A stretch of DNA of 64,000 nt from Verrucomicrobia bacterium LP2A (GCA_000526255.1 JAFS01000002.1:868001-932000), one strand, 5' to 3'. Positions 31,591 through 42,728 are shown, counted from the first letter of the stretch. Made by a program: numbers and translations. Notes: generated by a model not told the origin, from the letters alone.

Positions 31591-32160
31591 TCATTGAGGA
31601 ACGGTCATCGGAGGAACCGAGCCCCAGGTATTGCTCCAGCCCCTCCAGGGATAACCCCAGACCCAATCTCGCCTTGGGTAGCCCGCAGAGTCGCGTTGCC
31701 CTCCGTATTGGGGCCACAAGTGGATCTCCGTCGCGGCGATCAGGGGGTAGGTGTAGGGCCGATCGCCGATCTGCCCCGCCTGTGCACCAACGACGTGCCC
31801 CAAAACCGTGACATCGCGTCCCTTGCGATAGACGGACGGATCCAGGAAAGTCGAGCTCCTTGCGAGGAAACGGCCGCCGATCCGGTCGGAGGTGATCGGT
31901 CGATCGGAGCCGTCAAGCCGCTCCTGGAGAACTTCGAGCAGTGTACCCGCCTCGAGGTTCGTCGTTCGCGTGATCGCACCTCCGAGCATGACGATGCGGC
32001 CCTGGTAGGAAGAGGGCTTCTGCACAAGCGCGCTGAAGGAAGGCTGATCGTGGATCCGCTTCTTCTCTTCGCCGGCAAATGGGCTGCCGCAGCCGGCAAG
32101 AAGTACCGCAAGAGCAAGGCAACCGATTGCCCTCCCCTCGCCTTCGAAGAGCCGATTCAT
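31591..32160 (-). CDS. Slp-family outer-membrane lipoprotein, copy A
   Basis: A 189-residue lipoprotein of the Slp family (E. coli starvation lipoprotein). MNRLFEGEGRAIGCLALA leads to the lipobox LLAGC. Conserved core: QPSFSALVQKPSSYQGRIVM, GGRFLARSSTFLDPSVYRKGRD and the end PYTYPLIAATEIHLWPQYGG, followed by a W/Y/P/G-rich tail. The function of Slp proteins is not defined; E. coli slp is induced in starvation and acid stress. This is the most downstream of four tandem copies (54 bp after copy B), all on the minus strand. The frame is open far upstream, but the signal sequence fixes the start. Confidence 0.85.
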   Translation of the reverse strand: MNRLFEGEGRAIGCLALAVLLAGCGSPFAGEEKKRIHDQPSFSALVQKPSSYQGRIVMLGGAITRTTNLEAGTLLEVLQERLDGSDRPITSDRIGGRFLARSSTFLDPSVYRKGRDVTVLGHVVGAQAGQIGDRPYTYPLIAATEIHLWPQYGGQRDSAGYPRRDWVWGYPWRGWSNTWGSVPPMTVPQ

Positions 32161-32213
32161 CGACGCAGTTCCTCTTCCGATCCCTACGAACGCCGCTCCC
32201 TTCGAGCCTCCGC

Positions 32214-32774
32214 TTACCAGAAGGTCATCGGGGGCATCATGGGCCAGCCCATGCCCCAATCCATCCCGGGATAGCCCCAGCCCCACTCCACCCGTGGATC
32301 GTTCCAGTGGTCGTCCTCCACGTGCTCGCGCCACAGATGGATGCCTGTCGCGGCGATCAGGGGATAGGTGTAGGGTCTCTCCCCGATTCGGCCCGGCTGG
32401 CGCCCGACTACGCGTCCGACGATCGTGACCTCGCGGCCCTTGCCATAGACCTTGAGGTTGAGAATGGTCGAGGTACCCGCCACGAAGCGGCCTCCCGTCT
32501 GATCGGAGGCGATCGGTCGGTCGTAGGCATTGAGCGCCTTCTCGAGCACTTCCAGATAGGTGCCGCGGTTGCGATGTTTGGCGTAGAGGATAGTTCCGCC
32601 GAACATCACCGTTCGGCCCCGGTAGGCAGAAGGATTGCCTCGAATCACCGCGAAGGAGGGTTGATTCTGGACCTCCTGCTTCACCTCGTTGGGAAATGGG
32701 CTGCAGCCGACGCCGACCAGGGCGAGGAGAGCGAGAACAAACCGCCCCTCCCTCCTCCGGAAGAACGAGTTCAT
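32214..32774 (-). CDS. Slp-family outer-membrane lipoprotein, copy B
   Basis: A 186-residue paralog. The start MNSFFRRREG at 32774 has a GGGGAGGAT site; a hydrophobic helix ends in VGVGC, an acceptable but non-ideal lipobox. Core motifs match the other copies: QPSFAVIRGNPSAYRGRTVM, GGRFVAGTSTILNLKVYGKG and PYTYPLIAATGIHLW. It diverges most at YGKGREVTIVGRVVGRQPGRI. The tail ends WGWGYPGMDWGMGWPMM. It has its own 351 bp upstream gap, so it may be transcribed separately from copies C and D. Confidence 0.85.
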   Translation of the reverse strand: MNSFFRRREGRFVLALLALVGVGCSPFPNEVKQEVQNQPSFAVIRGNPSAYRGRTVMFGGTILYAKHRNRGTYLEVLEKALNAYDRPIASDQTGGRFVAGTSTILNLKVYGKGREVTIVGRVVGRQPGRIGERPYTYPLIAATGIHLWREHVEDDHWNDPRVEWGWGYPGMDWGMGWPMMPPMTFW

Positions 32775-33125
32775 CGATTTCGATCCTCCCCGGGGGATTT
32801 GGATCGGCACGCGGAGCCGGCTTCGGCATTCACGGATCGCCAAGCGGCATTCTACCCGCTCTTTCTTGCCGGTGCGAGCTTTCGTGCATGGGAAAGCCGA
32901 GAAAGGCAGATAGGCTCGCTAAAGAGAATCTTCGGCGGGCAGGGGGAGTTTCTTCGAGTATGCGGACGGGGGATTTAGATTTTAGGAAAGGAAAGGGATG
33001 AGGTGCGGAGCGCAGCCGGTTTCGTTGTGTGCGTTACCTGCCGGGTCGCGGTGATACCGGAGCTGCGGACGGGCGGCAGCTGGGAGGCGATGCAAGGCTC
33101 AATGGGACTACTCCCACCAAGAGGA
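32775..33125. other. Gap between Slp copies B and C
   Basis: No gene is seen. On the minus strand a TAAAAT hexamer occurs near 32975-32985 and could be a -10 element for copy B, but there is no convincing -35 partner. The stretch probably holds the copy B promoter and the end of the copy C transcript. Confidence 0.35.
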
Positions 33126-33680
33126 CTACCACCAAGGGCCGAAGCCCCACCCCATGCCCATTCCCATCCCCGGGTAGCCCCAGCCCCACCCCATGCCGGG
33201 ATAGCCCCAGTAGGAGTCGCCGGCCGTGTATTGCGGCCACAAGTGGATGTGAGTCGCGGCGACCACGGGATAGGTGTAGGGCTTTTCGCCGATCACCCCC
33301 GGCTGGGGCGCGGCTAGGCGTCCGACGACCGTGACGTCGCGTCCCTTGCTGTAGACTGACGGGTCGAGAAAGGTCGAGGTTCGTACAAGGAAGCGCCCGC
33401 CGATCTTATCCGAATCGATCGGTTGATCGGAGCTGTCGAGCTTTTCTTGGAGTACTTCGATCAGGGTGATGTCCTTGAGGTTCTTCGTTTGGGCGATCGT
33501 CCCTCCGAGCATGACCATTCGACCCCGGAAGGCGGAAGGGTTGTGCCGAATCGCGGCAAAGGACGGCTGACCTTTCACCTCCTCTTTCACTTCGCTCGAG
33601 AACGGGCTGCAGCTGGACAGGAGCGTCGCAAGAATCAGGCAAGCGACAGACCGCGGCCACTCCTGAAATCGCGGATCCAT
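33126..33680 (-). CDS. Slp-family outer-membrane lipoprotein, copy C
   Basis: A 184-residue paralog, with MDPRFQEWPRSVACLILATLL then the lipobox LSSC. Conserved QPSFAAIRHNPSAFRGRMVM, GGRFLVRTSTFLDPSVYSKG and KPYTYPVVAATHIHLW are present. The last 25 residues form a striking W/G/M/Y-rich tail (YPGMGWGWGYPGMGMGMGW is part of it) that no housekeeping Slp protein has to my knowledge. It begins 22 bp after copy D stops and is likely cotranscribed with it. Confidence 0.85.
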   Translation of the reverse strand: MDPRFQEWPRSVACLILATLLSSCSPFSSEVKEEVKGQPSFAAIRHNPSAFRGRMVMLGGTIAQTKNLKDITLIEVLQEKLDSSDQPIDSDKIGGRFLVRTSTFLDPSVYSKGRDVTVVGRLAAPQPGVIGEKPYTYPVVAATHIHLWPQYTAGDSYWGYPGMGWGWGYPGMGMGMGWGFGPWW

Positions 33681-33702
33681 ACAAGCAAATCCCTTCTGCC
33701 GT

Positions 33703-34269
33703 TCACCACATGCCGAAACCCGGCATCCCGAAGCCCATCCCCGACCCCCACATGCCCGGCTCGTAGCCCCAATTCATCATCGCCCAGTCGTAATCCGACC
33801 CCACGCTGCTCTCGGGCTGCCAGAGATGGATCTGGGAAATCGAGACGACAGGGTAGGAGTAGCTTCTCTTCCCGATGGTTCCCGGCTGAATGCCGCTGAC
33901 GCGGCCGGCCACGGTGACCTCGCGGCCACGCTTGTAAATGGAAGGATCGAGGAACTTGGGAGTCACGGCGAGAAAACGCCCGCCCGATTGGTTGGTCGAG
34001 CTTGGGCGTTCGTCGCCTCCCAAGGGCCTTTGGACGATTTCCAGGACAGTCGCATTCTTCCGGTTCTGGATTTGGGCGATTTTCCCACCGAAGATCACAA
34101 GCCGATTCTTGTAGGCGGCGGGATCCTGACGGAGGGCTCCGAAGGAGGGCTGGTCCTTAGCGGCCTCCACGGTGGATTCGGAAAAGGGCCCGCCACATCC
34201 CGCGAGGCTGCTGAGCAGAACTACCGCCAGAGCCACGCCGAGAGGAAACCGCACTTGTATGCTTCTCAT
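33703..34269 (-). CDS. Slp-family outer-membrane lipoprotein, copy D
   Basis: A 188-residue paralog, first of the tandem set in transcription order. MRSIQVRFPLGVALAVVL leads to the classic lipobox LAGC. The core has QPSFGALRQDPAAYKNRLVI, GGRFLAVTPKFLDPSIYKRG and SYPVVSISQIHLW. It is the least W-rich at the tail but still ends MGFGMPGFGMW. The start at 34269 is chosen for the signal; the open frame extends 45 bp upstream. Divergent from the TonB-like gene, with the promoters in the 180 bp between. Confidence 0.85.
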   Translation of the reverse strand: MRSIQVRFPLGVALAVVLLSSLAGCGGPFSESTVEAAKDQPSFGALRQDPAAYKNRLVIFGGKIAQIQNRKNATVLEIVQRPLGGDERPSSTNQSGGRFLAVTPKFLDPSIYKRGREVTVAGRVSGIQPGTIGKRSYSYPVVSISQIHLWQPESSVGSDYDWAMMNWGYEPGMWGSGMGFGMPGFGMW

Positions 34270-34448
34270 CGTGATTGACCTATGGGCGATCGGCGGTCCC
34301 TCCGTCAAGGCCAAAGCGGCCTTCCGCGAGCATGGACGAGCTCATCCTTCGAGCGGCAAAAATGTCTTTGGCGGCAACCGGATCCGTGCGAATGTATGCC
34401 GTTGCCAAACGGTTGCCTACGGGCGGTGGGACAGGAAAAGATCAGGGG

Positions 34449-35096
34449 ATGGAACGGAGAAGGTGGATCGCTCTTTTGGCCTCCGTGGCGCTTCATGCGG
34501 GCATCCTGCTCGGATCCGATGCCTGGGTCGTCAAACGGGCCGAGTATGGGATGGCGCTGGGGCAGAACTCGGTCGCCGTCGACCTGGTAGAAGGGGCGGC
34601 CGAACCGGAAGCAACACCGCAACCGCTTCCGCAGCCCGAACCGTTGGTTAAGCCAACGCCCGAGGAGATGGCGCAGGCGGTCGAGCAGAAGCCCACTCCC
34701 GTGGCCGCGATGCCCAAGGAGCCGGAAAAGGCTGCGCGCAAGTCCCATTCAGTGGCTGCGCGAGGGAAGGGCGTTTCGGGAGCGGGGCAGGACGCGATTA
34801 CCTTGAGGCGCGCAAGCGGCACCAGCGCCCAGCCGGACTATCTCAACAACCCGCCCCCTCCTTATCCCGAGGAGTGCCGCTGTCGGGGGCAGCAGGGAAC
34901 GGTGGTGGTGAAGGTCCTGGTCTCTCCTCGCGGAATGGCGCAATCGGTCGCGCTGAGCCGAAGCTCGGGGTTCGGCCCGCTCGATCGCGCCGCGCTTGAG
35001 GCGGTCCGGCGGTGGCGGTTTCGGGCGGCAACGATGGGAGGGCTCCCCATCGAGTCCTATGTGATGGTTCCGATTCGCTTCGTCCTCGAGAATTAG
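34449..35096 (+). CDS. TonB-like periplasm-spanning protein
   Basis: A 215-residue TonB-family protein: a short cytoplasmic end, one N-terminal helix (WIALLASVALHAGILLGS) with the conserved histidine, a proline-rich linker (QPLPQPEPLVKPTPEE), and a C-terminal TonB domain ending with SSGFGPLDRAALEAVRRWRF and YVMVPIRFVLEN. TonB transmits proton-motive force from ExbBD to outer-membrane receptors; no exbB or exbD is near. The start MERRRWIAL at 34449 is chosen because of the AGGGG site and the helix; the frame is open 174 bp upstream. It could serve any receptor in the cell. Confidence 0.8.
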   Translation: MERRRWIALLASVALHAGILLGSDAWVVKRAEYGMALGQNSVAVDLVEGAAEPEATPQPLPQPEPLVKPTPEEMAQAVEQKPTPVAAMPKEPEKAARKSHSVAARGKGVSGAGQDAITLRRASGTSAQPDYLNNPPPPYPEECRCRGQQGTVVVKVLVSPRGMAQSVALSRSSGFGPLDRAALEAVRRWRFRAATMGGLPIESYVMVPIRFVLEN

Positions 35097-36218: not shown

Positions 36219-39200
36219 ATGAATCCCAACCACATGATTATCGGCCTCGGCGGAACGGGAGGCAAAATCATCCGCGCCGTCCGAAAGACTATCTTTCAGG
36301 AATTTCGAAGCTTGAGCCCGGAAGAGGTGAGCGTCGGGTATCTCTACGTCGATTCGAGCGATGAGTTGATGCGCCTCGACGATCCGACCTGGAAGATCCT
36401 GGGGCAGAGCGTTCAGCTGGGCCCGAGCAGCCAGCTTCACATTCGGTGCGCCAACCTCTCGTCCATTCTGGAAAACCTGACCAACTACCCGGGAATCCGC
36501 CCGTGGATCGGCGATCGCGCGATCTGGAACGATATCTTGGGAGGGATCGTGGGTGATGCGATCGGCGGACAGAAACGGAGGCTCGGCCGATTCCTCTTCG
36601 CCAACCATGCGACCGAGTTTTGCGATCGGCTGACCGCGCAGGTGCGCGAGCTCCAATCCGGCGGGGAGGCCAGCGTTACCTTTCACGTCTGCACCGGTCT
36701 TGCGGGAGGGACGGGAAGCGGGACGATCGTTGACACCCTTTGTCAGATTCGGCGCCTCTATCCCGATTCGCTGCAATATCGCATCATCGGGTATCTCCTC
36801 CTTCCCGAAGAGCATCCGAAGCCCAATTGGAACACCGGGAACTACCATGCCAACGGCTATGCGGCGCTGGCGGAGCTCAACGCGCTGAGCATCGGGAAGT
36901 TCGTTCCCTGCAACATTGCGGGCAACGGCGGCAAGATGACTGATCTGCAGACGCCGTTCAACGGCGCCTATCTCTTTACGACTCACAACGAGAACGGGCT
37001 CGCGCTCGGCGTCGACGACATTCCGAACGTGGTCGCGGATTTTCTCTATCAGAAGATCGTCACAGTCCGAAAGGTGAACTGGGCGAGCCTTGCCCGGCAG
37101 GAAAATGCGGAAAATGGAGACGGGATGCCCGAAACCGTCCCGGGAACCAATAGCGGCGTCCGATCCAAAAGGTGGCTCACCTTCGGCGTGAAGAGGATCG
37201 CCGTGCCGGAGGAAGAGATCGCCGAATATCTCGCCTACCAGTTTGCCCGGCAGGCGGCCCTGCAGCTCCGCTACAACAACTGGTCGGAGACCGAAGGCTA
37301 CCTCCCCAACGCGAAGAACGTCGATCTGATGAGCTACGTCGCCGCCCCGGAACAGCTCGAGCGGTGGCTCCTTTCCGATGAGCACCTGATTTTATCGGCC
37401 GCCGTCCTGGAGGCGGATGGAACGCAGGGCCGATGGCAGCCGATCACTCGGTACTGGACGACCGTTGCCGGGGCTTTTAAGCGGGAGATCGAGGAGAGGG
37501 AGGAGGGAGCCAAGTGGCTCGACAGCCTAAAGGGGAGGCTCGAGGTCCGTTTCAGCGATCAATACCGCGGGCACGGCGTAAAAGCCTTCTATCAGACCGT
37601 GTCGGCCTCCGCTCGGGAGCGGGCGCGTGAGATCCGGCAGAAGCTCGAAAGAGAGCTTTTCGGCAACTGGCGCGATGGCATTCGGTCCGTTCATGAGATC
37701 AGCGGCCTGGTCGGTGCTGTGATCATCTATTTACGCAACCGCTTCGAGCGCTTCGACGACGATGTGACGAAAGCGAAGTCGCAGGAGGAGGCTCTCGCCA
37801 AGAAACTCAAGGATCAAGAGAAGGAGTGGGTGAAGGTCGGCGTCATTTCCGACATGTTCGGGAAACGGAAGCGGATCTTCGACACCTGTGCTTTGACGCT
37901 CCAGGACCTCTACGCCGCCCGGACCCGCATCGAAGGCTGGCAGTTCGCCAAGAAGTTTACCCCGGTTCTCATCGAAGAGATCACCCAATTGAAAGCCGAG
38001 CTCGACCGAAGCTCGGCGATGATCTCGGAGGCGGTCAAGAGTTTCGAGGAGCAGATCGCCGAGCGTTGCATCGACGAGGGTGGGGAGGTCGACTATCGCA
38101 ACCAGATCATCCGATTCTATGACCCGGACCTGGTCCGGACGGTGACGCGAAGGTTGACCAAGGACGCACGAGAGCAGCTCACGCAGACGCAGCGCGTGCG
38201 CTCCGCGCTCGTGGCCATGCTCGGCGACAAGCTCGATTTCCGCACCTTCAACGAGCGAATCAACCGAACGACCTTCTTGGACGTGCTCGAAAACCAGTGC
38301 ATGGAGAATGCGAAGATCTCTCACAACAACCTCATCGAAAGCAGCAAGGAGAAGCTGATCGGTGTCAGCATCATCGACAAGCTGCGCGACCGGTATGGCG
38401 ATCGGCAGGCGCTCCGGCTCTTTATCGACGGAATCGTCAAGGCCGCCGGCAACTACTTGATTTTCAGCCCGGACGAGATCAAGAGATCGGCCCCCGGAAT
38501 CAATCCGGGAGCGCAAGTCTGTGTCTCGACCTTCACGGTGATCCTTCCCAGAGCGCCAGAAGCGGAGGATTTCGTGAAGATGCTGCGGGAGGTCTTTTGG
38601 GAGTGCGTGCAGACGACGGCTCGGGAGTTTCTGGATGGTAGCCGACCCAACGAGATCATCTTGACTAGCGTCACGAATCTTTTTCCGCTTCGCGTCGTCC
38701 AGCTGCTCTCCTTTCTCCGGGCTCGCTATCTTGAGCGGGTGAATGGTCCCAATCCGGCGCGGGCCCGGATGGAGATTCATATCGAGGATGACGGGCAAAC
38801 CCTTCCGAGCGTCTTCCTCCCGAGCCGGGGGGAGCTCCAGGACCGCGTTGCGCCCTGTCTGCTTCTCGGCAGCGCCTTGGGGCTGGTGGCCGATCGGGAA
38901 AACGAGCGGGGTGTGAAGGAGCTGGCGATGATCGTGAAAGACGAATTTGGGATCGAAACGCCGGTCTTCCTGGAAGGAGCGACGATTCCCGAAACGTTAG
39001 TCAACCTTCCCGAACCGAAGGCTCTCGTCTTAGAAGAAACGGTGGGCAAGCAGCTCGCCGATCCGGAGCTGCGTCGGGAGCCGAGGCGTACCGAGCTGAC
39101 CCAGAGGTTAGCCGCCATGGTCAATGAGCTCTCGCGTCAGCTTCCTCCTTCGGATCCCCGGACCAAGCTTTTTCCGGACTGGGGGCGGAGGGCGATCAAG

Positions 39201-39221
39201 CTTCTCCGCGGGGAGGGATAG
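36219..39221 (+). CDS. Large tubulin/FtsZ-like protein (Tubulin_2 type)
   Basis: A 1000-residue protein. The N-terminal 300 residues look like a tubulin/FtsZ GTPase fold of the Tubulin_2 type: GLGGTGGKIIRAVRK (residues 9-23) is the first nucleotide loop and GLAGGTGSGT (160-169) is the tubulin signature that binds the nucleotide phosphates. A charged, probably coiled-coil segment (REIEEREEGAKWL and KSQEEALAKKLKDQEKEW) lies at about 420-560 and a long uncharacterised helical C-terminal part follows. No transmembrane helix. Family members have been suggested to remodel membranes; the role here is unknown. The start ATG at 36219 follows a TTG at 36216. It heads a three-gene plus-strand cluster. 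Confidence 0.82.
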   Translation: MNPNHMIIGLGGTGGKIIRAVRKTIFQEFRSLSPEEVSVGYLYVDSSDELMRLDDPTWKILGQSVQLGPSSQLHIRCANLSSILENLTNYPGIRPWIGDRAIWNDILGGIVGDAIGGQKRRLGRFLFANHATEFCDRLTAQVRELQSGGEASVTFHVCTGLAGGTGSGTIVDTLCQIRRLYPDSLQYRIIGYLLLPEEHPKPNWNTGNYHANGYAALAELNALSIGKFVPCNIAGNGGKMTDLQTPFNGAYLFTTHNENGLALGVDDIPNVVADFLYQKIVTVRKVNWASLARQENAENGDGMPETVPGTNSGVRSKRWLTFGVKRIAVPEEEIAEYLAYQFARQAALQLRYNNWSETEGYLPNAKNVDLMSYVAAPEQLERWLLSDEHLILSAAVLEADGTQGRWQPITRYWTTVAGAFKREIEEREEGAKWLDSLKGRLEVRFSDQYRGHGVKAFYQTVSASARERAREIRQKLERELFGNWRDGIRSVHEISGLVGAVIIYLRNRFERFDDDVTKAKSQEEALAKKLKDQEKEWVKVGVISDMFGKRKRIFDTCALTLQDLYAARTRIEGWQFAKKFTPVLIEEITQLKAELDRSSAMISEAVKSFEEQIAERCIDEGGEVDYRNQIIRFYDPDLVRTVTRRLTKDAREQLTQTQRVRSALVAMLGDKLDFRTFNERINRTTFLDVLENQCMENAKISHNNLIESSKEKLIGVSIIDKLRDRYGDRQALRLFIDGIVKAAGNYLIFSPDEIKRSAPGINPGAQVCVSTFTVILPRAPEAEDFVKMLREVFWECVQTTAREFLDGSRPNEIILTSVTNLFPLRVVQLLSFLRARYLERVNGPNPARARMEIHIEDDGQTLPSVFLPSRGELQDRVAPCLLLGSALGLVADRENERGVKELAMIVKDEFGIETPVFLEGATIPETLVNLPEPKALVLEETVGKQLADPELRREPRRTELTQRLAAMVNELSRQLPPSDPRTKLFPDWGRRAIKLLRGEG

Positions 39222-39280
39222 AGATATGTCTTGCAGGCCAAGAGGGCCGCTGCGTCGGGCGGGCAGCCGCAGGAGAAAGC

Positions 39281-40909
39281 TTGGGAGATATGCCGGGTAG
39301 ACGAGGCCTTTGTCAGAATTACGGAAATTGTCCGACGCGCGCGGATACGCGCGAGGTCATGGAAATTCCCGAAGGCAAGGAGTTTGTCTGCCCGGACTGT
39401 GGGAGCCCTCTGGTGCCGGAAGAAGAGGCCAATCGCCGTCCGAGGAGGAGGAGAAAGCGAGGAGTCGTGCTCTTCCTGCTGCTCCCGCTGTTGGTTTTCG
39501 GCGGGAGCGTGCTCTGGCTCATTCTTCGCGGGCATCCGCAACCTGCTGTCGCTCCGGCTCCCCAATCCTTGCCCCCGTCCCGGAAGGTCCCTCCCGCGGC
39601 CGAGCGGACGCTCTTTACGATTGCCGGCTCGCGCATCTTGGGGGGCAAGCTTGTTCCTGATCTGGTGAGGGCTTTTCTCTCGGACGAGCTTCGAGCGGAC
39701 GGAGTCACCATGCGGCGGGAAAAAGACGGACAGTCCCTTGCGGTCGTGGGGAAGGTGCCCGACGGGAAGGAAGAGATTGCTGTCCGGATCGTTTGCTCGA
39801 GCACTTCTGACGGATGGAAAGATCTGGCGGGCGATGGGGCGCAGATCGCGATGGCCTTTCGCAAGATTACTCCGGAGGAGGCGGCGCTCTGCGGCAAGAC
39901 GGTCAACCTCACGGCTCCGGATTCCGAGCATGTCATCGGGGTCAGCGGTGTCGTGGCCGTCGTTTCGGCCGCCAATCCGGTTTCGAAGATCTCTTTGGCC
40001 GAGCTGCGCAAGATCTTCGGAGGACCAGTGGCAGACGGCAAGGCGGTTGGCTTCCCTCCGGGAAAAATCGTCCTCTATGCTTCTCCGTCCGCCTCGGGGA
40101 GCTGGCAGCTCTTTTCCCGACACGTGCTGGAGGGTTCTCCCGGATCGGCCGACATCATCCGCCTGGAAAACGGAGCGGAGATCTCCTCTCGAGTCTCGGC
40201 CGACGCGCACGCCCTGGGAATCGTTGACTTTCCTCACGTCGGGAGTTGTAAGCCCTTGGCCCTTTACGAGAAGGGAACCATGCCTCTTGCCCCGACTTTC
40301 GTATCGCTCGAGTCGGAGGCCTACCTCCTTTCGACCCGACTCTACCTCTACACCAAGGGGAGCGGACAAAATCCCGATGTCGACGCCTTCATTCAATTCG
40401 TTCTCTCCGATCGAGGGCAGCAGGAGGTGCAGAAGGCGGGCTTCGTTGGGGCGGCGACGAAGTCCGGCAACGGGGCCGAGTCCTTGATTCAACCGGAAAC
40501 GGCAATCCCGCACGATGCTCCCGCAGGGTACCGGGAGCTCGTCAAGGGGGGAAACCGAGTCGCCTTCGACGTCCGTTTTCGGACCGGGAGTGCGGAGTTG
40601 GACAACAAGGCACTCGTCGACATCCGGCGTCTGGCGAAGCTGATGGGCGAAAGGGAAGAGAAGAGCCAAGCGGTTCTCCTGATCGGGTTTACGGACAACG
40701 TGGGGGATCGCGCCTATAACCTACCCCTTTCGGTCGAACGGGCGCAGAGCGTCGGGCAGGCGCTTCGTGTCCTGGGCATCCCCGTTGCGGCGACCGCGGG
40801 AGAGGGAGACCAGATGCCCGTAGCCTCGAACGGCACTCCGGAAGGCCGGGAGAAGAATCGCCGCGTCGAGCTTTGGATCGTCCGCGGGAAGGCTTCCGAG
40901 AAGCCTTGA
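39281..40909 (+). CDS. Zinc-ribbon / TM / PstS-like binding domain / OmpA fusion
   Basis: A 542-residue protein with an unusual domain order. Cytoplasmic ribbon: C11, C17, C37, C40 (CQNYGNC ... CPDC). Then a basic stretch RRPRRRRKR, one helix (61-83), a proline linker, a periplasmic-binding-protein-like domain (about 108-400; PstS-type with FTIAGSRILGGKLVPDLV and SLESEAYLLSTRLYLYT) and a C-terminal OmpA/peptidoglycan-binding domain (about 420-535; FDVRFRTGSAELDNKALVDI and GFTDNVGDRAYNLPLSVERA, ending REKNRRVELW). The protein probably anchors in the inner membrane and contacts the cell wall. The start is TTG at 39281 (AGGAG five bases upstream) or ATG at 39290. It begins 60 bp after the tubulin-like gene. 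Confidence 0.8.
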   Translation: MGDMPGRRGLCQNYGNCPTRADTREVMEIPEGKEFVCPDCGSPLVPEEEANRRPRRRRKRGVVLFLLLPLLVFGGSVLWLILRGHPQPAVAPAPQSLPPSRKVPPAAERTLFTIAGSRILGGKLVPDLVRAFLSDELRADGVTMRREKDGQSLAVVGKVPDGKEEIAVRIVCSSTSDGWKDLAGDGAQIAMAFRKITPEEAALCGKTVNLTAPDSEHVIGVSGVVAVVSAANPVSKISLAELRKIFGGPVADGKAVGFPPGKIVLYASPSASGSWQLFSRHVLEGSPGSADIIRLENGAEISSRVSADAHALGIVDFPHVGSCKPLALYEKGTMPLAPTFVSLESEAYLLSTRLYLYTKGSGQNPDVDAFIQFVLSDRGQQEVQKAGFVGAATKSGNGAESLIQPETAIPHDAPAGYRELVKGGNRVAFDVRFRTGSAELDNKALVDIRRLAKLMGEREEKSQAVLLIGFTDNVGDRAYNLPLSVERAQSVGQALRVLGIPVAATAGEGDQMPVASNGTPEGREKNRRVELWIVRGKASEKP

Positions 40910-41045
40910 GAGAGCGGCCGACAGGGCGAGGAGAGGGTGCAGGAGAGAAGGGGCCACGGCCCGTGCAATCTGGTCTTTCGGTCTTACTTTGACAGAGCTG
41001 CGGAAATGAGAGAAGATGCAAGAGAGGGAAAGGGCCAGGAGACGC

Positions 41046-42728
41046 ATGAGCGATCTTGTTGATCCCGATGCGGATGTAAAGCCGAGAAGTCGGCCGGCGG
41101 ATCCGGGGGCGAATGGATACGCCAACGGAGCCCCCCCGCGCTCGGGGGGCGCTTCCGGACGGACCCAGAAGGGGAGATGCCCCAATGTAGGAGAGTGCCC
41201 GAACGGCGGAATGGTCGTCGAGGTACCGAAGGGGGCGTCATTTTCCTGTCCGGAATGCGGCAGCGAGCTTCTGCCGGAGCGAAGCCGCGGAGCCAGAAGC
41301 CGCAAGAAGCTTCTGGCGTTGTTTGTGCTCGTGGGAGCACTCTGCCTTTTGGGGGCCGTCTCCTATTTTGCCCTGTTGCCGTTCGTCGTCAGCCTGACCG
41401 GGAAAAAGACGGCCGACAGTTCCGGGAGAATGGTCGGAAGCGATGGGCCTCCTTCCGGCTCTCAGAAGAGCGAACCTCCTCCGCCTGCTCCTCCGGAGAA
41501 AAAGCCGACCCTCACCGAGGCGGAAGCGGCCTTGCGGAAGGATCTGCCCAAGGGAATCGAGCTCGTCTCTCTCAAGCCGGGCGAGGGACAGAAAAACCCG
41601 GATGGCTCTTGGAACCTCGCCTACGATGCGACCGTCGTGGCCGAGAATGGCCAATATTGGGTCCCCATCGCCGACCTCGATGCGGCCAACCTCACGAAGC
41701 GCTTGAACGAAGTTCCCTCTCCCGAGCGCTCCTGGGCGCGTCGGCACTTGAAAGATCTGGTGCTGACGCAGGATCAGGCTCCCGGGCAGCAGTATCTCTT
41801 CAGCCGGAAGAAGCCGCTTGCTTCTCTGACCCCGGGCACCCCATTCCCGTTTGCCTGGAAGGTAGTGGCGACGCCAAGGGAGGTTGGAAGCTGGAAATTC
41901 GTCCCGACCGCCCCGCTGCCTTTCACGGCACCCGCCCCGAGCGAGGGGGGAGCAGACACGCGGGTCGTTCTGCGGAGCAGCTCTGAGCTCGAACAGGCGC
42001 AAGTGCTCGATGAGCAGCGCTGGAATCGATTCGTCCAGCGCCTCAAGGGGATTGAGCGGGAGGCCCAGAACCGATACCGGGAAGTCATAGATAATGCGCC
42101 CGCTCGAGTCCGGAAAGCCGATGTCTTCCGTGCGGGCAGCGGCGGACCGACGACCATGGGGGAAGGAGCTGGGATCGGTGCTGCCGGTGGAGCCCTGGGA
42201 GGAGCGATGTTTGGCGGCGGGGAGGGAGCGGCGATCGGTGCAGGGGTCGGCGCCGTCTTGGGAGCGCTGGGCGGAGGAATCTACTCGCATCAGAAGCAGC
42301 AGAAGCAATACGAGGCGGCACTGGCCGAGCGAAAGACGTACGAGCGACGGGCGGCCTCCGCCGAGCGCGAAGCGCGGGAGCAGCTGCTCTCCCAATATGG
42401 ACAAGATCTGGAGGAGCAGGCACAGCGGCAGCTCGCGCAGTTGGCGGGAGGAACGACCGGGGCTACCAATCCGTCGTCTTCCGGGGGAAGCACGGCTAGT
42501 CCGGCGAATCCTCCTTACTCACCCTATGGTTCCTCACCATCGAGCTCGGGGCCTCCACCCATGCCTCCGTTGCCGCCGCAACAACCGTATGGAGCTTCTC
42601 CGGAGTCAACGCAAGCCCCTGATTATGGTGGACCGCCCCCGGGGCAGAACCCGTTTGGCGGCGCTTCCTCGCTGCCTCCAGCGGGTGATGGGCCTCCACC
42701 GCCGCCTCCCCCTCCCCCGCCTAATTAA
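41046..42728 (+). CDS. Zinc-ribbon / TM / glycine-zipper / Pro-rich protein
   Basis: A 560-residue protein sharing its N-terminal plan with the preceding gene: ribbon cysteines C45, C51, C68 and C71 (CPNVGEC ... CPEC), then a basic stretch and one helix at about 88-117. The outside part has a proline linker, an uncharacterised domain (about 150-340), and a glycine zipper (GAGIGAAGGALGGAMFGGG and GAGVGAVLGALGGGIYSHQ, about 370-415) typical of membrane-inserting or oligomerising segments. A coiled helix (SHQKQQKQYEAALAERKTYE) and a proline/serine/glycine-rich tail ending in a run of prolines follow. The start ATG at 41046 has AGGAG four bases upstream. No known function. Confidence 0.75.
   Translation: MSDLVDPDADVKPRSRPADPGANGYANGAPPRSGGASGRTQKGRCPNVGECPNGGMVVEVPKGASFSCPECGSELLPERSRGARSRKKLLALFVLVGALCLLGAVSYFALLPFVVSLTGKKTADSSGRMVGSDGPPSGSQKSEPPPPAPPEKKPTLTEAEAALRKDLPKGIELVSLKPGEGQKNPDGSWNLAYDATVVAENGQYWVPIADLDAANLTKRLNEVPSPERSWARRHLKDLVLTQDQAPGQQYLFSRKKPLASLTPGTPFPFAWKVVATPREVGSWKFVPTAPLPFTAPAPSEGGADTRVVLRSSSELEQAQVLDEQRWNRFVQRLKGIEREAQNRYREVIDNAPARVRKADVFRAGSGGPTTMGEGAGIGAAGGALGGAMFGGGEGAAIGAGVGAVLGALGGGIYSHQKQQKQYEAALAERKTYERRAASAEREAREQLLSQYGQDLEEQAQRQLAQLAGGTTGATNPSSSGGSTASPANPPYSPYGSSPSSSGPPPMPPLPPQQPYGASPESTQAPDYGGPPPGQNPFGGASSLPPAGDGPPPPPPPPPPN

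Follow-up and report, generated by a model that had tools for sequence, protein, structure and literature searches.

A Tubulin_2 gene cluster with neighbouring ribbon-transmembrane genes in Verrucomicrobia bacterium LP2A

The tubulin-like gene cluster and its products

This study concerns a small cluster around a tubulin-like gene in a window of 64,000 nucleotides (G000:C2:868001-932000), which lies inside the 2.47-Mb genome of Verrucomicrobia bacterium LP2A, a host that we take to be a methane-oxidising bacterium. P0001 (36219..39221, plus strand) encodes a Tubulin_2/FtsZl1 protein of 1000 amino acids, for which Pfam (PF13809), AlphaFold2 (AF2) and VIA-align point to a tubulin fold with a helical insertion. 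Two genes for ribbon-transmembrane (ribbon-TM) proteins follow on the same strand: P0002 (39290..40909), with PstS-like periplasmic binding protein (PBP) and OmpA domains according to Pfam, and P0003 (41046..42728), assigned by Pfam and a ribbon profile, with a lineage-specific periplasmic domain, a glycine zipper and a proline tail. Upstream and divergently transcribed lies P0004 (35123..35899, minus strand), a protein with 3-4 TM segments and a helical soluble part that was recognised from its homologs beside Tubulin_2 genes. The initial annotation of this DNA had described P0001 to P0003 by gene order, cysteines, helices and motifs, all of which are present in the sequence; its inventory of three genes stands, but it overlooked P0004. 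Comparison with relatives places the start codons at ATG 36219 (P0001), ATG 39290 (P0002) and ATG 41046 (P0003), the start of P0002 being most likely ATG 39290 because its relatives begin there. The gaps of 60 and 136 bp given earlier agree with the sequence, the shorter one presupposing that P0002 starts at TTG 39281. Scans for promoters and terminators found sites no more numerous than in shuffles, so the operon boundaries are drawn solely from gene spacing.

P0001 matches Tubulin_2 with an E-value of 7e-62 (210 bits against a curated cut-off of 27) and is 90% identical to homologs of Methylacidimicrobium tartarophylax and M. cyclopophantes, so that the host is probably a Methylacidimicrobium. 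It is the only Tubulin_2 protein in the source genome; a separate FtsZ/tubulin-family gene, above the PF00091 cut-off, lies elsewhere and is presumably the ordinary division FtsZ. The T4 nucleotide-loop motif GLAGGTGSG (residues 159-167, numbered without the Met; 36696..36722, plus strand) fits the pattern GG(G)TG(S/T)G, and each of its positions is conserved at 92-100% in 53 relatives.

The AF2 model of P0001, built with the 53 relatives, has a predicted local distance difference test score (pLDDT) of 90.9. VIA-align matches it to CetZ (3zid) over 310 residues (Z 26.9, root-mean-square deviation 3.7, model range 1-846), and to BtubA/B and eukaryotic tubulins with Z values of ~24 over a range of up to residue 867. 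CetZ is complete by residue 345; since the aligned range of P0001 runs to 846, the C-terminal tubulin strands must follow the long helical region that comes after the tubulin domain (helices 408-614 in the model). A mostly helical insertion is therefore predicted inside the tubulin C-terminal domain, at residues ~353-765 (37278..38516, plus strand), where we infer the boundaries from the AF2 secondary structure and the aligned range. In this model the elements would run S6 (248-252), H7 (264-285), S7 (318-327) and H9 (330-350), and would resume after the insertion of ~400 residues with S8 (768-776), S9 (800-806) and S10 (811-821). Among the aligned relatives, N256 at the position of T6 never varies, and the T7 stretch has near-invariant E297, N298 and E304; residues 286-317 are a candidate for the T7 catalytic loop by topology only. 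The model thus implies a complete tubulin fold, including H7 and the C-terminal domain. When the FtsZl1 family was described by Makarova and Koonin in 2010, with Methylacidiphilum infernorum and Polaromonas among its members, the authors were unable to find T6-H7 or to connect the C-terminal half with tubulin, and called filament formation open (PMC2875224). Both parts are suggested by the AF2 model, a prediction that would settle the 2010 doubt in favour of a full tubulin fold.

P0002 begins with a ribbon of the form C-x5-C...C-x2-C (C11/C17/C37/C40; 39311..39400, plus strand). All 52 aligned relatives keep its four cysteines, a feature for which the search profile partly selects. A TM helix at residues 63-81 (39467..39523, plus strand) is called from hydropathy and has positive residues on its N-terminal side, where RRPRRRRKRG precedes it. 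Pfam and motif comparison then place a PBP_like_2 domain at residues 165-378 (39773..40450, plus strand), with eroded pocket motifs, and an OmpA domain at residues 433-527 (40568..40879, plus strand), with its peptidoglycan-contact motif kept. Most PBP-OmpA members outside the Methylacidimicrobium/Methylacidiphilum family keep the oxyanion-type motifs GSNT, D[IV]xMxSR and RxxxSGT. The corresponding motifs in Methylacidimicrobium and Methylacidiphilum read GSRI, AQ[IV]AMAFR and PxxASGS, or worse, and the OmpA motif GF[TA]D...LSxxRA is intact in both genera. With the pocket eroded and the OmpA motif intact, P0002 of this lineage resembles a wall anchor in which ligand sensing has been lost. Proteins named "phosphate ABC transporter substrate-binding/OmpA family protein" by NCBI share its PBP and OmpA layout. 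In one genome (G007; loci L012/L020), the first cysteine pair of the P0002-homolog ribbon is seemingly lost.

P0003 has its own ribbon (C55/C61/C78/C81; 41178..41258, plus strand), found by the ribbon profile and cysteine alignment, and a TM helix by hydropathy at residues 99-117 (41310..41366, plus strand). A weak YMGG glycine zipper at 382-421, under the Pfam cut-off, precedes a proline-rich tail. Comparison of P0003 with solved structures gave no match. PADLOC matches to LeoBC/LeoA were disregarded because they are located in the glycine-zipper and low-complexity region. In the nearest sister genome (G004), the P0003 ribbon-TM gene is tandemly duplicated (L016 15175-18627).

For P0004, no Pfam family was matched. 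Its model is all-helical (pLDDT 85), and a comparison with the PDB returned nothing significant, the best entry being the McpS ligand-binding domain (E 0.37).

Ribbon-TM genes beside Tubulin_2 genes in several phyla

When an alignment of four relatives was run against 84,980 species genomes, it returned 80 named Tubulin_2 loci, which come from Verrucomicrobiota, Pseudomonadota, Bacteroidota, Acidobacteriota and others. The ribbon gene was located with an iterated ribbon profile, and two loci that reach a contig edge (L072 and L102) were left out, leaving 78 that could be evaluated. A ribbon-TM gene adjoins the Tubulin_2 gene in 75 of them: 69 directly downstream on the same strand by the profile, two with diverged ribbons recognised by eye (L081 and L087), and four of Chromatiaceae type divergently upstream. 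It is absent beside Tubulin_2 only in L067, L076 and L086, and the genomes of the first two have a ribbon gene elsewhere. Such adjacency indicates that the cluster is more than chance. The converse search gave a similar picture, since 28 of the 31 strong ribbon matches in 30 whole genomes (~155 Mb) fall at the Tubulin_2 locus. Among 289 Verrucomicrobiota genomes, a full-length ribbon occurs in six, namely the five with this Tubulin_2 and one, G010, that has lost it (Fisher p ~1e-7 for the co-occurrence, in genomes that are related to each other). The initial annotation had named rare co-occurrence of the homologs as a refutation of its system idea. This check did not refute it: across phyla, members of this Tubulin_2 subfamily nearly always have the ribbon-TM gene next to them.

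The part of the protein beyond the membrane is much less uniform. A Pfam scan covered 66 proteins, i.e., 62 ribbon proteins and four separate PBPs, and found PBP_like_2 in 16, OmpA in 15, TPR_1 in at least 13, and NMT1_3 and FGE-sulfatase in four each, with single cases of M48, LysM, SBP_bac_3 and Ig domains. Polaromonas and Accumulibacter have a short ribbon-TM protein at their loci, with a TAXI/NMT1-type binding protein encoded by the next gene. Thus, the ribbon is constant inside and the periplasmic part varies between species. The ribbon is probably zinc-binding. No ribbon family is among the 25 commonest Pfam families of the 66 scanned proteins, and no Pfam or NCBIfam ribbon model exceeded its cut-off for P0002 or P0003. 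The best PDB entries for the ribbon were zinc fingers that match mainly the CPxC knuckle, which we regard as a common knuckle and not as homology.

Homologs of P0004 occur in ~22 of the 80 named loci, about a quarter. Most of them immediately precede Tubulin_2 on its own strand, separated by a gap close to zero. In Methylacidiphilum the typical gene order is P0004-P0001-P0002-P0003-P0004, and the Methylacidiphilum species G010 provides a natural deletion. There, P0001, P0002 and one P0004 are missing through one gap and the other P0004 through a second, separate gap; a tRNA-Cys gene lies at one boundary. Because P0001, P0002 and both P0004 genes are kept in G012 (84%, the nearest to G010 by flanking DNA) and in the more distant G009 and G011, G010 has lost them. 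This joint loss links P0004 to the tubulin-like protein, and on such genomic evidence P0004 is the fourth component of the cluster.

Interpretation and rival explanations

We lean towards the view that the cluster encodes a tubulin scaffold tethered to the membrane, in which a ribbon-TM adaptor provides the coupling to periplasmic domains that can be exchanged. P0001, a member of the tubulin superfamily, would reside in the cytoplasm and carry a long helical arm within its C-terminal domain. The adaptors would bring it to the inner membrane, and their cytosolic end, the constant cysteine ribbon followed by one TM helix, may be what contacts the tubulin-like protein, while their periplasmic end would be exchangeable. 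In the P0002 adaptor this end would be the PstS-like domain with an eroded pocket plus the OmpA wall anchor, and in P0003 a Verrucomicrobia-type domain; P0004 would be an additional membrane partner. Such a complex could have a physical link to the envelope and act at the membrane as a scaffold or switch under nucleotide control; P0001 may hydrolyse nucleotide and polymerise, and the link may have a mechanical role. The charge around the helix, the cytosolic-type cysteines and the periplasmic-type domains fit a cytoplasm-to-periplasm topology. The initial annotation had proposed a cytoplasmic filament or ring tied to the wall. The filament or ring is conjectural; this topology and the intact peptidoglycan-contact motif of P0002 agree with a tie to the wall. 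However, a wall link is not general, since OmpA is found in only about a quarter of the scanned ribbon proteins and others carry TPR or further domains. By analogy, ZipA/FtsA anchoring of FtsZ also ties a tubulin-family protein to the inner membrane by a single-TM adaptor. ZipA has a cytosolic FtsZ-binding domain and no known periplasmic sensor or wall domain, and it is not known to be homologous to the ribbon-TM proteins.

The near-constant pairing suggests a general way to tie a tubulin-type scaffold to the cell envelope. More tentatively, and with distinctly less confidence, the loci could represent a widespread transenvelope device. Here, a cytoplasmic tubulin-type polymer would be recognised by a dedicated ribbon/TM adaptor, which would couple it to periplasmic heads that can replace one another (wall anchor, ligand sensor or TPR), and either the envelope state would control assembly or assembly would act on the envelope. 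If true, several phyla would share a linkage between cytoskeleton and envelope whose outer parts are exchangeable.

How does this compare with what has been described? The initial annotation knew of no system with this set of parts; that none has been described is incorrect, as FtsZl1 with OmpA proteins was published in 2010, Methylacidiphilum included, and proposed to remodel membranes together with vWA, GTPase and OmpA-family proteins (PMC2875224). That system shares with ours the PF13809 family, an N-terminal tubulin domain followed by a long coiled-coil or helical region, and OmpA proteins nearby (PMC2875224), represented in our cluster by P0002 according to Pfam. In contrast, neither the vWA gene nor the GTPase gene of that system was seen next to P0001. 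The window genes scanned, i.e., P0001-P0005, four Slp proteins and a radical-SAM neighbour, gave no VWA match, and no diverged P-loop GTPase was seen among the scanned neighbours of the cluster. Conversely, the main text of that paper presents no ribbon-TM partner and no P0004 family, and never uses the words ribbon or zinc (PMC2875224). In the portion of their paper covered here, Kaur et al. (2020) interpret as conflict systems a set of GTPase-centred systems that include tubulin proteins in Firmicutes and Actinobacteria (PMC7159879). As in our cluster, the tubulin domain is fused to a C-terminal helical region, with zinc ribbons and TM proteins around it. However, those systems carry DO-GTPase and GAP1, their tubulin-bearing forms are from Firmicutes and Actinobacteria unlike the P0001 cluster, and their zinc ribbons belong to GTPases or kinases instead of a TM adaptor (PMC7159879). 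In a search that covered DO-GTPase2 and not DO-GTPase1, the source genome stayed under the cut-off and one of 21 genomes exceeded it. A limited literature search turned up no experimental function for the FtsZl1 family. What is new here is the near-constant ribbon-TM neighbour with its varying periplasmic part, P0004, the predicted full tubulin fold and the loss in G010. The constant membrane partner and the whole tubulin fold turn a vague membrane-remodelling proposal into specific tests of binding, localisation and polymerisation.

Several observations weigh against a tubulin scaffold with ribbon-TM adaptors. The ribbon profile was built partly from the same loci, other Tubulin_2 branches have no ribbon partner (for example, Tubulin_2 occurs in three of 250 Burkholderiales genomes, and two of these are of another type of ~1450 residues without a ribbon), and gene adjacency alone does not prove contact. 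In addition, P0003 remains in place between both G010 gaps without a tubulin gene; P0003 is therefore not strictly dependent on that gene and can stand alone. Likewise, a ribbon-PBP-OmpA protein is encoded in the Burkholderiales genome G550 (L141 6387-7952), where Tubulin_2 was not found. These two cases would suit an operon of convenience for envelope proteins, in which the ribbon proteins and the tubulin-like protein have no joint function. We consider this very improbable, given that the same ribbon adjoins Tubulin_2 in several phyla despite different other neighbours and that few ribbons lie elsewhere in the genomes. One further protein speaks for the scaffold: P0006, encoded on a Pseudoalteromonas plasmid, combines PBP and OmpA and has a TM helix, yet it lacks the ribbon that P0002 has, and Tubulin_2 was not found on the same plasmid. 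As a single case it is an illustration and not a test.

Alternatively, the cluster could be a transmembrane device for signalling or transport regulation, in which a periplasmic PBP or TPR part senses a ligand, the ribbon relays its state to the tubulin-like GTPase, and filaments have no structural role. A reviewer of the 2010 paper had already suggested transport or signalling (PMC2875224). PBP domains indeed recur, either fused to the ribbon protein or encoded beside it as in Polaromonas and Accumulibacter, and most PBP-OmpA members outside the Methylacidimicrobium/Methylacidiphilum family conserve the oxyanion motifs (GSNT / DIGMASR / RDxxSGT). However, within that family the pocket is eroded and the OmpA motif kept, and many ribbon proteins have no PBP, so we hold this explanation to be rather unlikely. 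Less likely still is a conflict or defence system, in which a tubulin-like NTPase controls an effector. It draws on the proposal for tubulin-containing GTPase systems (PMC7159879), on the caspase-like and DUF4384 proteins encoded upstream in some subtypes, and on a distant Tubulin_2 from a Meiothermus plasmid (L015 4546-14316), which is accompanied by a vWA gene and located in a BREX-like cluster (BrxL, a DUF1156 protein and HEPN). In this family, though, the locus is chromosomal, lies between housekeeping genes and is mostly vertically kept; the cluster in the window has no effector, and DO-GTPase2 was not above cut-off in the source genome. A defence island was rejected because the tubulin-like protein has no PADLOC match and no relatives in phage or IMG/VR contigs, and appears in only four plasmid records. 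The rivals with which the scaffold still has to contend are signalling through the PBP and, for subtypes that carry caspase-like genes, a conflict function.

Other subtypes and neighbouring genes

Two further arrangements recur among the loci. In one, Tubulin_2 is paired with a ribbon-TM-TPR protein, and genes for caspase-like (PF00656), DUF4384, glycine-zipper and TPR lipoprotein products lie upstream (L013 5198-14546; L059, L061, L066, L069, L074, L075, L083, L089-L101 and L104). In the other, genes for an ABC ATPase and an FtsX-like permease come after those for Tubulin_2 and a ribbon-TM protein, and some of these loci also have FGE-sulfatase-like and vWA-like genes (L068, L080, L081, L084, L085, L087 and L093).

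Among loci without a ribbon, two Verrucomicrobiota Tubulin_2 genes (L136 and L137) are followed by a TM-coiled-coil protein and by membrane proteins that look, by eye, to be of MotA/ExbB type. A member of the Burkholderiales branch with an open frame of 1445 residues (L147 4913-16403) has a TAXI-type binding protein and a glycine-zipper lipoprotein nearby, again by eye.

In the window itself, the Slp outer-membrane lipoprotein family (PF03843) is represented by four paralogs in tandem (E 5e-38 to 7e-45), which occupy 31594-34314 on the minus strand, just upstream of a TonB-like gene at 34275-35096 on the plus strand.

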